From positions 1-36,927 of the forward strand of contig JAHFEQ010000010.1 in NCBI GenBank assembly GCA_023248395.1: 36,927 nucleotides of DNA. The letters run 5' to 3'. The position numbers were made by a program, and so were the translations under genes. The notes below the pieces were generated by a model. The model did not search any database and was not told the DNA's origin. It worked only from the letters and a program-made list of their open reading frames with translations. This DNA is from Nitrospirota bacterium. GTDB lineage: Bacteria > Nitrospirota > 9FT-COMBO-42-15 > HDB-SIOI813. Shown here piece by piece: positions 2,782-7,036 of this stretch (position 1 is the stretch's first letter; the number at the start of each line of letters is the position of its first letter).

Positions 2782-3114
2782 ATGATGGACGTAAAAGATG
2801 TCAGCAAGGTCGCGGAATTTTCTTCTGAGAAGATGAAAAAGATTAACCTCTTTCAGACGGACCGGGTCCTCTGCGATGTTTACTGCCTTGAGCTTGGTCA
2901 GGCGCAGAAAATCCATGCCCATGACGATCAGGATAAGATCTGCCTGGTCCTCAGCGGTCAGGCCATGGTCAGGGTTGGCACAGATGAGAAGACATTGGTG
3001 AAGAACCAGATTGTTATTGCTCCCGCAGGCCAGGAACATGGTGTCAGCAATCCCGGACCGGAAAGACTGTCTCTCTTGGTCTTTATGGCGCCAGTGCATA
3101 TGCATCATCATTAA
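2782..3114 (+). CDS. Small single-domain cupin protein
   Basis: Internal start of ORF 2614..3114, preceded by AAAGGAG. IHAHDDQDKICLVLSGQAMVRVG...IVIAPAGQEHGVSN is a cupin pattern. Confidence 0.8.
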   Translation: MMDVKDVSKVAEFSSEKMKKINLFQTDRVLCDVYCLELGQAQKIHAHDDQDKICLVLSGQAMVRVGTDEKTLVKNQIVIAPAGQEHGVSNPGPERLSLLVFMAPVHMHHH

Positions 3115-3770
3115 CAAGAATCTTCACCTTCCCATTCCTTATAGAACTTGTCCAGATATTGCTCCATAAACTGATGCCTCTGTTCTGCAATATCCTTTGC
3201 AGTCCTTGTATTCATCAGATCTTTCAGGAGGAGCAATTTTTCATAAAAATGATTGATACTCGGCCCCGTCTTCGTTTTATACTGTTCAAATGTTTCGTGT
3301 CTCTCAGGTTTAATATCCGGATTATAGATCTCCCTTCCTTTGTAGCCGCCATAGGCAAATGTCCTCGCAATCCCGATCGCACCGATGGCATCCAGCCGGT
3401 CCGCATCCTGAACGACCATCCCTTCGATGGTCTGCATCCGGTCTTTTACGCCTGCACCTTTGAAAGAGACCTCTCTGATAATTTCACAAACATGGGCGAT
3501 CACCTCTTCTTCAACCTGCAATCTTTCAAGCCACTCTCTGGCTAACCTCGGACCAACAGAATCATCCCCTCCGTTAAATTTCCAGTCCGCGATATCATGG
3601 AGTAGCGCTCCAAGTTGAACAACAAACATATTTGCATCCTCTCCTTTACAGAGATGAATCGCATTTTTCCAAACGCGGTAGACGTGCCACCAATCGTGAC
3701 CCGTTCCTTCGCCTTCCAGGGTCTTTCTCACATATTCTTCCGTCTGTTTAATCACAGATTCTTTATCCAT
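3111..3770 (-). CDS. HD-domain phosphohydrolase (YedJ-like)
   Basis: GHDWWHVYRVWKNA...LLHDIAD...VVQDADRLDAIGAIGIARTFAYGG pattern of HD hydrolases. Confidence 0.85.
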   Translation of the reverse strand: MDKESVIKQTEEYVRKTLEGEGTGHDWWHVYRVWKNAIHLCKGEDANMFVVQLGALLHDIADWKFNGGDDSVGPRLAREWLERLQVEEEVIAHVCEIIREVSFKGAGVKDRMQTIEGMVVQDADRLDAIGAIGIARTFAYGGYKGREIYNPDIKPERHETFEQYKTKTGPSINHFYEKLLLLKDLMNTRTAKDIAEQRHQFMEQYLDKFYKEWEGEDSC

Positions 3771-3818
3771 ATTTTCCTTTCAAATGGGCATGGGGAGTGT
3801 CCCTGCGACCTGCAAGTA

Positions 3819-3837
3819 ATTTTTGCGATGCAAAAAT
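3819..3837 (-). terminator. Hairpin directly 3' of the tRNA (ATTTTTGC-GAT-GCAAAAAT); possible terminator or trailer hairpin
   Basis: 8-bp perfect arms with 3-nt loop, 2 nt after the CCA end. It lacks a clear following T-run, so the function is uncertain. Confidence 0.3.
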
Positions 3838-3839
3838 CC

Positions 3840-3931
3840 TGGCGGAGAGAGAGGGATTTGAACCCCCGGTGGAGTTTCCCCCACAACTGCTTTCGAGGCA
3901 GTCGCCTTCAACCGGACTCGGCCATCTCTCC
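3840..3931 (-). tRNA. tRNA-Ser (anticodon CGA), CCA encoded
   Basis: Reverse complement GGAGAGATGGCCGAGTCCGGTTGAAGGCGACTGCCTCGAAAGCAGTTGTGGGGGAAACTCCACCGGGGGTTCAAATCCCTCTCTCTCCGCCA: acceptor pairs GGAGAGA/TCTCTCC, anticodon loop CTCGAAA, long variable arm, T-loop GGTTCAAAT. Confidence 0.95.
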
Positions 3932-3934
3932 GGA

Positions 3935-4336
3935 TCAGAATATCTCAAACCCCATCTGTCTGAAATGCTCATCAAATGTAAAAGCCCTCTGGAGTCTGAT
4001 ATTTTTCATTAAAACAAAACTCGTGCAGTCTGTAAAGCTCAATTCCTTGTCTCCATAGCGCCTAAACATTTCCCATGCTGTGGATCTGATGTTCTCTGTC
4101 ACATCTTCTATTCTTATTATCCTGCTGCTGAACAGGGAATCTCCAAAAATGACAGCCGCTTTATGCGAGACCCTGTATCGCAGCAGGGTAATGCTCTCAT
4201 CGATGATATATTCTGACGTTATGAATTCAATCCTCTGTCTCTTGACCTCCAAACTCGTTGCTACTGCCTTATGATGATACTGGTCATTTCTGTCATTAAG
4301 CGCAAGCCATGCCGAGGTGTCTACAAAAACTCTCAT
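3935..4336 (-). CDS. PIN-domain toxin (VapC-type ribonuclease)
   Basis: MRVFVDTSAWLALND..., ...ELSFTDCTSFVLMK...: PIN acidic residues. Overlaps the upstream antitoxin ORF by 4 nt. Confidence 0.88.
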   Translation of the reverse strand: MRVFVDTSAWLALNDRNDQYHHKAVATSLEVKRQRIEFITSEYIIDESITLLRYRVSHKAAVIFGDSLFSSRIIRIEDVTENIRSTAWEMFRRYGDKELSFTDCTSFVLMKNIRLQRAFTFDEHFRQMGFEIF

Positions 4337-4581
4337 CTGTTCTTACCATAAAGGTATTTGTCGTGGTTTACAGAAAGATCTCTCTCCTTTGAACTGCTTG
4401 AACCCACCATATTCCACAGGGGATCATCATTCCAGTTTTTCACCTCTTCCTTTTTAAGGAGCTCAGAAACCGCATCCCTTACGATATTGGCAACAGTGGT
4501 CTTCTTCTCCAAAGCCTTTCTTTTTAGTTTCCTGAGTATCTCTTCAGGGAAATACATCTGTGTTCTTTTAAGCGTAGGCAT
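4333..4581 (-). CDS. Ribbon-helix-helix (CopG-like) antitoxin of a VapBC-type pair
   Basis: MPTLKRTQMYFPEEILRKLKRKALEKKTTVANIVRDAVSELL: RHH pattern; directly upstream of and overlapping the PIN toxin. Confidence 0.8.
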   Translation of the reverse strand: MPTLKRTQMYFPEEILRKLKRKALEKKTTVANIVRDAVSELLKKEEVKNWNDDPLWNMVGSSSSKERDLSVNHDKYLYGKNR

Positions 4582-4600
4582 GGGCTATCCTCTTGTGAGA

Positions 4601-4621
4601 TGATGTATATTATATACATCA
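4601..4621. promoter_or_regulatory. Perfect 21-bp palindrome (TGATGTATAT-T-ATATACATCA), probable autoregulatory operator of the TA operon
   Basis: 10-bp perfect arms with 1-nt centre, 19 bp upstream of the antitoxin start; fits an RHH antitoxin operator. Confidence 0.6.
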
Positions 4622-4801
4622 CAGAAATGCCTGTCAAATAATGGATTCAGGCAGGTGCTGTATAAATGCTCTTCCCGGCCCCGTAATAAGAGTCATAAAT
4701 ATGCTGATAGGTCATATGACACTTCTGCTGGTAGAGTTCCAGTGTAGCCCTGAGGATATTTCGTGCATGTTTGCCTGTATAGCTATTTCACTAATAAACT
4801 A

Positions 4802-5481: not shown

Positions 5482-5602
5482 CGCTCAAAAATGCCCAGAT
5501 GCAAGGAAGGACAAGGGTTCGAGCCGAGGCGTACTTCTCTGTACGTTGAGGCGAAGAACCCGCAGGCCTGACGCCGCAGATGGGCATTTTTGAGCGTCAA
5601 CC
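5476..5602. repeat. 127-bp long imperfect palindrome with perfect 22-bp terminal arms, between convergent VOC and nuoN genes
   Basis: GGTTGACGCTCAAAAATGCCCA (5476-5497) is the exact reverse complement of 5581-5602. Inner pairs GGGTTC/GAACCC (5515-5520/5556-5561) and CGTAC/GTACG (5530-5534/5541-5545). Confidence 0.85.
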
Positions 5603-7036
5603 AGGAAAGATGGCGCTCTTGGCAAGTTCAAGGAACCATGTCGGCAGGATGCCAATGATCACGGTGCCGGCGACAGCAATGGCAAGGGCAAGGCTGCTGG
5701 CCGGTGTGTGGGCCAGGTCGAACTCACGGGTAGGCTCTTTCATGTACATCAGCATCACGATGCGGATATAAAAATAGGCGGAGACGACACTCATGATCAC
5801 GCCGATAACGGCAAGAGCGATATAGCCGTTCCGGACGAGGGACATGAAGATATAGAACTTCCCGACAAAACCGGCGGTTGGTGGTATACCGGCCAGGGAG
5901 AAGAGGAATATGAGCATCAGGAGGGCCGCCCCCTTGTTGACCTTCGAGAGGCCGGTGTAGTCTTCTATATTCTCCCCTCTGAAATTCCCTTTCCTCATCA
6001 TAATGATCGTGCCAAAGATCCCCATGTTCATGAACGTATAGATCAGCATATAAAGCATGACGCTGGCAATGCCGTCAGGGCCGCCTGCCACAAGCCCGAG
6101 GAGGGCATAGCCTGCATGGGCAATGCTCGAGTAGGCCAGCATCCTCTTGATGTTGGTCTGGGAAAGGGCCACGAGACTCCCGACGGCCATGGTCAGAACG
6201 GAGATGACAGCAATCAGGGTCACCCAACTGGTCGAGACAGGCCCCAGGGCCGCAATAAAGACCCGGAGCAGGGCTGCAAAGGAGGCGGCCTTCGGCCCGA
6301 CAGACATAAAGGCTGTGATAGATGTCGGCGCCCCTTCATAGACATCCGGCGCCCACATGTGGAACGGCACTGCCGCCACCTTAAATCCGAATCCTGCCAC
6401 CAGAAAGGTGATGGCAAGTATCAGCGCTATATCAGGACCCCCCTGACCCCGGAGGACCGCGGCAAGGTCAGACAACTGGGTCGTCCCTGTAAGACCATAG
6501 ACAAGGGATATGCCATAAAGGAGCACCCCTGAGGAAAAGGCCCCCAGGATTACATATTTCATGGCCGCCTCATTGGAACTCCCATTATGCTGGATAAATC
6601 CCGTCAGGACATAGATGGAAAGGGCCATGAGCTCAAGTCCGACATAGATGCTGAGGAGATCTGTGCCGGAGGCCATGATCATCATGCCGCTTAAGGCAAA
6701 GAGCATCAGGATATAGTATTCGCCGCGTTCCACCCCCTCCACCTTGATATAATTGATGGAAAGGAGGATGGCAAGAAATGTAGCGAGATAAAATGTCATC
6801 TTAAAAAAGGTGGAATACCCATCGATGACGAACATCCCGCTCAGGATATTTTCCGAGTTGCCGGCGATCAGCCAGGTCCCTGCAGCTGCAACAAGGATCA
6901 CGAGCAGGGATAAATAGGCGATGATATGCTTCTGGTTCCTGTCTAACACCAGGTCAAGAAGGATCAGAAGACATGCGCCGGAGAGGACGATAATCTCCGG
7001 CATACTGAGTATCATGTTAGAGATGTCAAATGTCAT
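5597..7036 (-). CDS. nuoN: NADH-quinone oxidoreductase subunit N
   Basis: Proton-conducting membrane subunit; GFGFKVAAVPFHMWAPDVYEGAPTSITAFMSVGPKAA is NuoN-typical; last gene of the nuo operon. Confidence 0.93.
   Translation of the reverse strand: MTFDISNMILSMPEIIVLSGACLLILLDLVLDRNQKHIIAYLSLLVILVAAAGTWLIAGNSENILSGMFVIDGYSTFFKMTFYLATFLAILLSINYIKVEGVERGEYYILMLFALSGMMIMASGTDLLSIYVGLELMALSIYVLTGFIQHNGSSNEAAMKYVILGAFSSGVLLYGISLVYGLTGTTQLSDLAAVLRGQGGPDIALILAITFLVAGFGFKVAAVPFHMWAPDVYEGAPTSITAFMSVGPKAASFAALLRVFIAALGPVSTSWVTLIAVISVLTMAVGSLVALSQTNIKRMLAYSSIAHAGYALLGLVAGGPDGIASVMLYMLIYTFMNMGIFGTIIMMRKGNFRGENIEDYTGLSKVNKGAALLMLIFLFSLAGIPPTAGFVGKFYIFMSLVRNGYIALAVIGVIMSVVSAYFYIRIVMLMYMKEPTREFDLAHTPASSLALAIAVAGTVIIGILPTWFLELAKSAIFPG

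Follow-up and report, generated by a model that had tools for sequence, protein, structure and literature searches.

A VapBC cassette directly upstream of a tRNA-Ser(CGA) gene in a single Nitrospirota genome: a tRNA probably taken over by a toxin-antitoxin promoter

The window, a stretch of 36,927 nucleotides from a Nitrospirota bacterium (contig JAHFEQ010000010.1), carries a vapBC toxin-antitoxin pair that ends 3 nt before a tRNA-Ser(CGA) gene on the same strand. This arrangement was found in one genome alone, and the neighbourhood of what is an ordinary VapBC pair looks like the result of a chance landing. We favour, with a probability of about 0.72, an account in which insertion of the cassette replaced the tRNA promoter, the tRNA is supplied by read-through and released by RNase P, and the toxin acts on 23S rRNA. 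The interest that remains is that a tRNA has probably been captured by a toxin-antitoxin promoter, an unusual rewiring seen in a single genome.

The genes vapB, vapC and tRNA-Ser(CGA) are arranged head to tail, in that order, on the minus strand. The first, vapB (4333-4581), encodes an 82-aa ribbon-helix-helix-like antitoxin and overlaps the start of vapC by 4 nt, while vapC (3935-4336) encodes a 133-aa VapC20-like PIN-domain RNase toxin, the TGA stop codon of which is followed by the spacer TCC (3932-3934) and then by G1 of the tRNA. The tRNA gene (3840-3931, CCA encoded) was identified by ARAGORN and matched Rfam RF00005 with 58 bits at 3843-3931, and a cloverleaf formed when it was folded together with its flanks. 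Upstream of vapB, a perfect sigma-70 promoter, TTGACA-17-TATAAT (4609-4637, minus strand; 12/12 match to the consensus), overlaps the palindromic operator GATGTATATAATATACATC (4602-4620; 19 nt with 9-nt arms, not assigned to a strand), within which the -10 hexamer lies. No terminator-like site was found within 3600-4800, and hence none between the operator and the tRNA. The 3-nt gap, the three minus-strand genes and the single palindromic operator had been proposed in a preliminary description of this DNA, and all of them were borne out by ARAGORN, Rfam and the sequence. An HD-domain phosphohydrolase gene (3111-3770, minus strand), located 69 nt 3' of the tRNA, is a possible further member of the tRNA transcript. 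Of the mini-hairpins and repeats that flank this tRNA in several relatives (see below), the window retains only a hairpin, in the 3' flank (3800-3839).

The ancestral locus is marked by nuoN (5597-7036, minus strand in the window), because nuoN followed by tRNA-Ser(CGA) is kept on one contig and in one orientation not only in the window but also in three relatives (G003, G002 and G006). None of these relatives showed vapBC homology between nuoN and the tRNA. In the window, this stretch holds vapBC and a glyoxalase gene, and in G003 it holds genes for an NAD(P)H-binding protein and an ORF6N protein; its content may have been exchanged repeatedly. A promoter-like sequence, TTGACG-17-TAATAT, is present 6 nt upstream of the tRNA in G003, and promoter-like sites before the tRNA also score high in G002 and G006. 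On the 5' side, the window shows no homology to these three genomes until the tRNA is reached, and it thus lacks the promoter region that they have. Because the relatives have promoter-like sites where the window carries vapBC, the cassette has probably taken the place of the tRNA promoter region, as judged from a comparison across genera in which all of the relatives fall outside the genus of the window. No target-site duplication was identified at the cassette. An imperfect 16-nt direct repeat (81%) at the cassette ends (3962-3977 and 4624-4639) was dismissed as a possible insertion footprint: it covers the 3' coding end of vapC and the -35 hexamer, and it was discounted because short two-copy repeats often arise by chance. 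Beside the tRNA-Ser(CGA) genes of several relatives (L009, L010, L022 and L029), short GCNNNGC mini-hairpins were observed together with decayed CTTATAAC-type repeats. The CTTRTARC repeat found beside the tRNA in relatives had one match in the genome of the window, where it is not dispersed and forms no family.

The preliminary description had left two sources for the tRNA, co-transcription with vapBC or a promoter inside vapC. Scored with a generic E. coli sigma-70 weight matrix, the vapBC promoter reached 16.1, where 95% of random coding positions stay below 7.4, while the best promoter-like site at the 3' end of vapC, TTCAGA-16-TATTCT, scored 6.3 and fell at the 87th percentile of coding positions. 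Because this site is weak, the tRNA most likely depends on transcripts that start at the vapBC promoter and read through vapC, and is freed from them by RNase P. Co-transcription thus stands as plausible, all the more as the promoter-like sites of the relatives have probably been replaced by vapBC, and a promoter inside vapC fares poorly. It is nevertheless conceivable that the tRNA has its own promoter in the 3' end of vapC, independent of vapBC, in which case the adjacency would have no regulatory effect. A -10-like hexamer, TATTCT, is found 5 nt upstream of the tRNA and might serve, and a scan of this kind may miss sites, since several other tRNAs in the genome lack a recognisable sigma-70 promoter (of 38, 15 have a site above the 95th-percentile score); both points also count against the favoured account. 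However, the -35 of this site is poor, its score is within the range of random coding positions, and a start there would leave almost no 5' leader, so we regard an independent promoter as unlikely.

In the favoured account, a self-contained, autoregulated VapBC cassette would have entered the variable nuoN-tRNA-Ser(CGA) stretch in one Nitrospirota lineage, and its 3' end would have substituted for the tRNA's own promoter. VapB together with VapC would presumably act on the palindrome to repress the strong promoter; transcripts would continue past vapC into the tRNA, there being no terminator to stop them, and an RNase P cut at G1, just 3' of the vapC stop codon, would release the tRNA. The toxin would cut the sarcin-ricin loop of 23S rRNA, as VapC20 does, and its linkage to the tRNA would be a by-product of the landing place. 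A tRNA-Ser(UGA) is present in the same genome and, under standard wobble pairing, can decode UCG. Because it could thus serve as a back-up, an altered supply of tRNA-Ser(CGA) would be tolerable. A further consequence can be imagined, in which the cassette has captured a housekeeping tRNA so fully that tRNA-Ser(CGA) supply and UCG decoding follow the autoregulation of VapBC, and a cell that loses the cassette loses the tRNA too, which would make a tRNA-reinforced addiction module of it whatever the toxin target. We hold this to be distinctly doubtful.

To evaluate whether the linkage of toxin and tRNA is kept in related genomes, the comparison was made from both sides. Genes resembling the tRNA-Ser(CGA) of the window were present in 57 of 61 genomes of the phylum, and the best 30 matches, all of them tRNA-Ser(CGA) and the window's included, were inspected for up to 1.5 kb on each side; the orthologues in relatives showed 85-99% identity. 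Neither vapC nor vapB was found near the tRNA at any of the 29 other loci within these flanks. In the reverse direction, no tRNA adjoined vapC at any of 80 homologous loci from public genomes with 2.5-kb flanks; at 3 of the 80 a tRNA of some kind lay within the flanks but never next to vapC. The other vapC loci from relatives also had no tRNA. The adjacency is thus not kept in related genomes. A search of the literature for co-transcription of vapC with tRNA genes brought up a genome description that appears to have no bearing on the point.

The operator-promoter layout of the window is similar in four homologous loci (L111, L112, L113 and L120), and ATGTATATAATATACAT likewise precedes the homologous vapBC in L111 and L113. 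In L038, a vapB 77.5% identical to that of the window lies upstream of a vapC 66% identical, and the DNA homology between the two cassettes (74%) runs from the operator through the last vapC codon, as expected if the moving unit consists of the operator and the two genes. The neighbours of the homologous cassettes vary. The cassettes of L109 and L111 end 3 nt before folP, the same gap as that to the tRNA in the window, and these two folP-adjoining homologues are among the closest, with toxins 79% and 75% identical to the VapC of the window. For other homologous cassettes, the next gene encodes an aminotransferase or an amidohydrolase and is 17-33 nt away, and by crude ORF calling the downstream ORF was on the same strand and within 100 nt in 29 of the 76 vapC loci having one. 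The tRNA of the window is one more neighbour of a cassette family in which a gene often follows immediately. As members of this family adjoin folP just as tightly and also occur near aminotransferase genes, adjacency is a poor guide to target coupling. The locus further illustrates how a selfish toxin-antitoxin cassette may take the place of the promoter of a gene to which it is unrelated, be it a tRNA gene, and thereby make its own deletion costly although toxin and neighbour are not functionally connected. The idea of a tRNA-linked addiction module, raised at the outset, found no support, since the arrangement was found in none of the related genomes inspected and the cassettes are equally close to unrelated genes. 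A single-sequence scan of viral contigs revealed no relatives, and plasmids yielded only distant ones (<60% identity). In L113 and L123, the operator 5' of vapB is a perfect 37-nt palindrome, the right arm of which ends with the Shine-Dalgarno-like GGAGGT and the left arm of which carries its complement, ACCTCC.

The identity of the toxin also bears on its target. VapC matched the Pfam PIN family with 52.7 bits (E 8e-14), and among 16 homologues the acidic residues E47, D103 and D122 were invariant and D6 nearly so; NCBIfam held no model for the toxin, and VapB gave only a weak Pfam RHH_5 match of 21.6 bits, under the cut-off of 26. Against solved structures only, phmmer matched VapC to VapC20 at 8.3e-21. 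A profile of 16 relatives run against the solved structures of the PDB again placed VapC20 first (E 1.4e-31), followed by AF_1683 (5.8e-17), VapC26 (3e-10) and VapC30 (0.029), and VapC20 is thus the nearest characterised toxin. The window pair shares with VapBC20 of Mycobacterium tuberculosis a PIN RNase with conserved acidic residues, similar to VapC20 across the whole domain, a small antitoxin gene upstream with a 4-nt overlap and a palindromic operator on the promoter, but it differs in that it adjoins a tRNA gene, that its host is a Nitrospirota bacterium and that its antitoxin matches Pfam RHH models weakly.

The tRNA-Ser-cutting toxins are likewise PIN-domain toxins from VapBC modules; they include VapC30 of M. 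tuberculosis and VapC10 of Sinorhizobium meliloti. The toxin of the window did not group with the tRNA-Ser-cutting VapC30, a distant relative whose E value of 0.029 puts it well after VapC20, AF_1683 and VapC26; of the tRNA-Ser cutters, VapC30 was the one compared. VapC20 cuts the sarcin-ricin loop of 23S rRNA (PMC7180214). Because VapC20 tops the profile matches, 23S rRNA is a better guess than the tRNA, and by sequence similarity, a fallible guide to target among VapCs, the most likely target is this loop; tRNA-Ser(CGA) is an unlikely one. The preliminary description had suggested a coupling of toxin and target. In such a scheme, the toxin would cut tRNA-Ser(CGA), and the linkage would let the cell replace this tRNA each time it produces the toxin. 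The two genes are indeed physically adjacent, and some VapCs do cut tRNA-Ser(CGA), for example VapC5 of Mycobacterium abscessus (PMC10287673). However, with a VapC20-like toxin, an arrangement missing from every other tRNA-Ser(CGA) and vapC locus inspected, and close homologues equally tight on unrelated genes, such coupling has very little to recommend it. Still less credible is an assembly artefact joining two genomes at a near-identical tRNA, for although the assembly is a draft of 119 contigs and the tRNA genes of relatives can be 99% identical over 92 nt, three relatives have the upstream nuoN linked to the tRNA in this same order, the vapC/tRNA junction precedes the tRNA and so lies outside the shared sequence, and no jump in GC content occurs there.

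Finally, the tightness of the junction was set against other tRNA genes. Among the 39 tRNA genes gathered with Rfam from the genome of the window, three, including the window's, are preceded on the same strand by a genuine gene whose end falls no more than 10 nt from the tRNA 5' end, and tightness alone is therefore not exceptional. Of the other two, a tRNA-Met starts 6 nt after the end of rpoD, and tRNA-Thr(CGT) shares 10 nt at its 5' end with a purine nucleoside phosphorylase gene. At the latter locus (L070, 689-2612), the tRNA is faced on its 3' side by a phage-type integrase gene, and its surroundings are probably an integrated element. Protein genes leading into tRNA-Ser(CGA) are also ordinary in the phylum, since tadA lies directly upstream on the same strand in 16 of 29 relatives, at 1-122 nt as measured from alignment ends. 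As with vapBC, the protein gene of these pairs in other Nitrospirota immediately precedes the tRNA, and a clear promoter for the tRNA is often lacking. The difference is that tadA, which encodes a tRNA deaminase, is a housekeeping gene that recurs at this place, whereas vapBC was found there once. In one of the relatives (G038; L031, 1074-1595), the tadA frame has no stop codon before the tRNA, traverses the entire tRNA-Ser(CGA) gene and ends just past it, so that the predicted C terminus of TadA is encoded by the tRNA gene.
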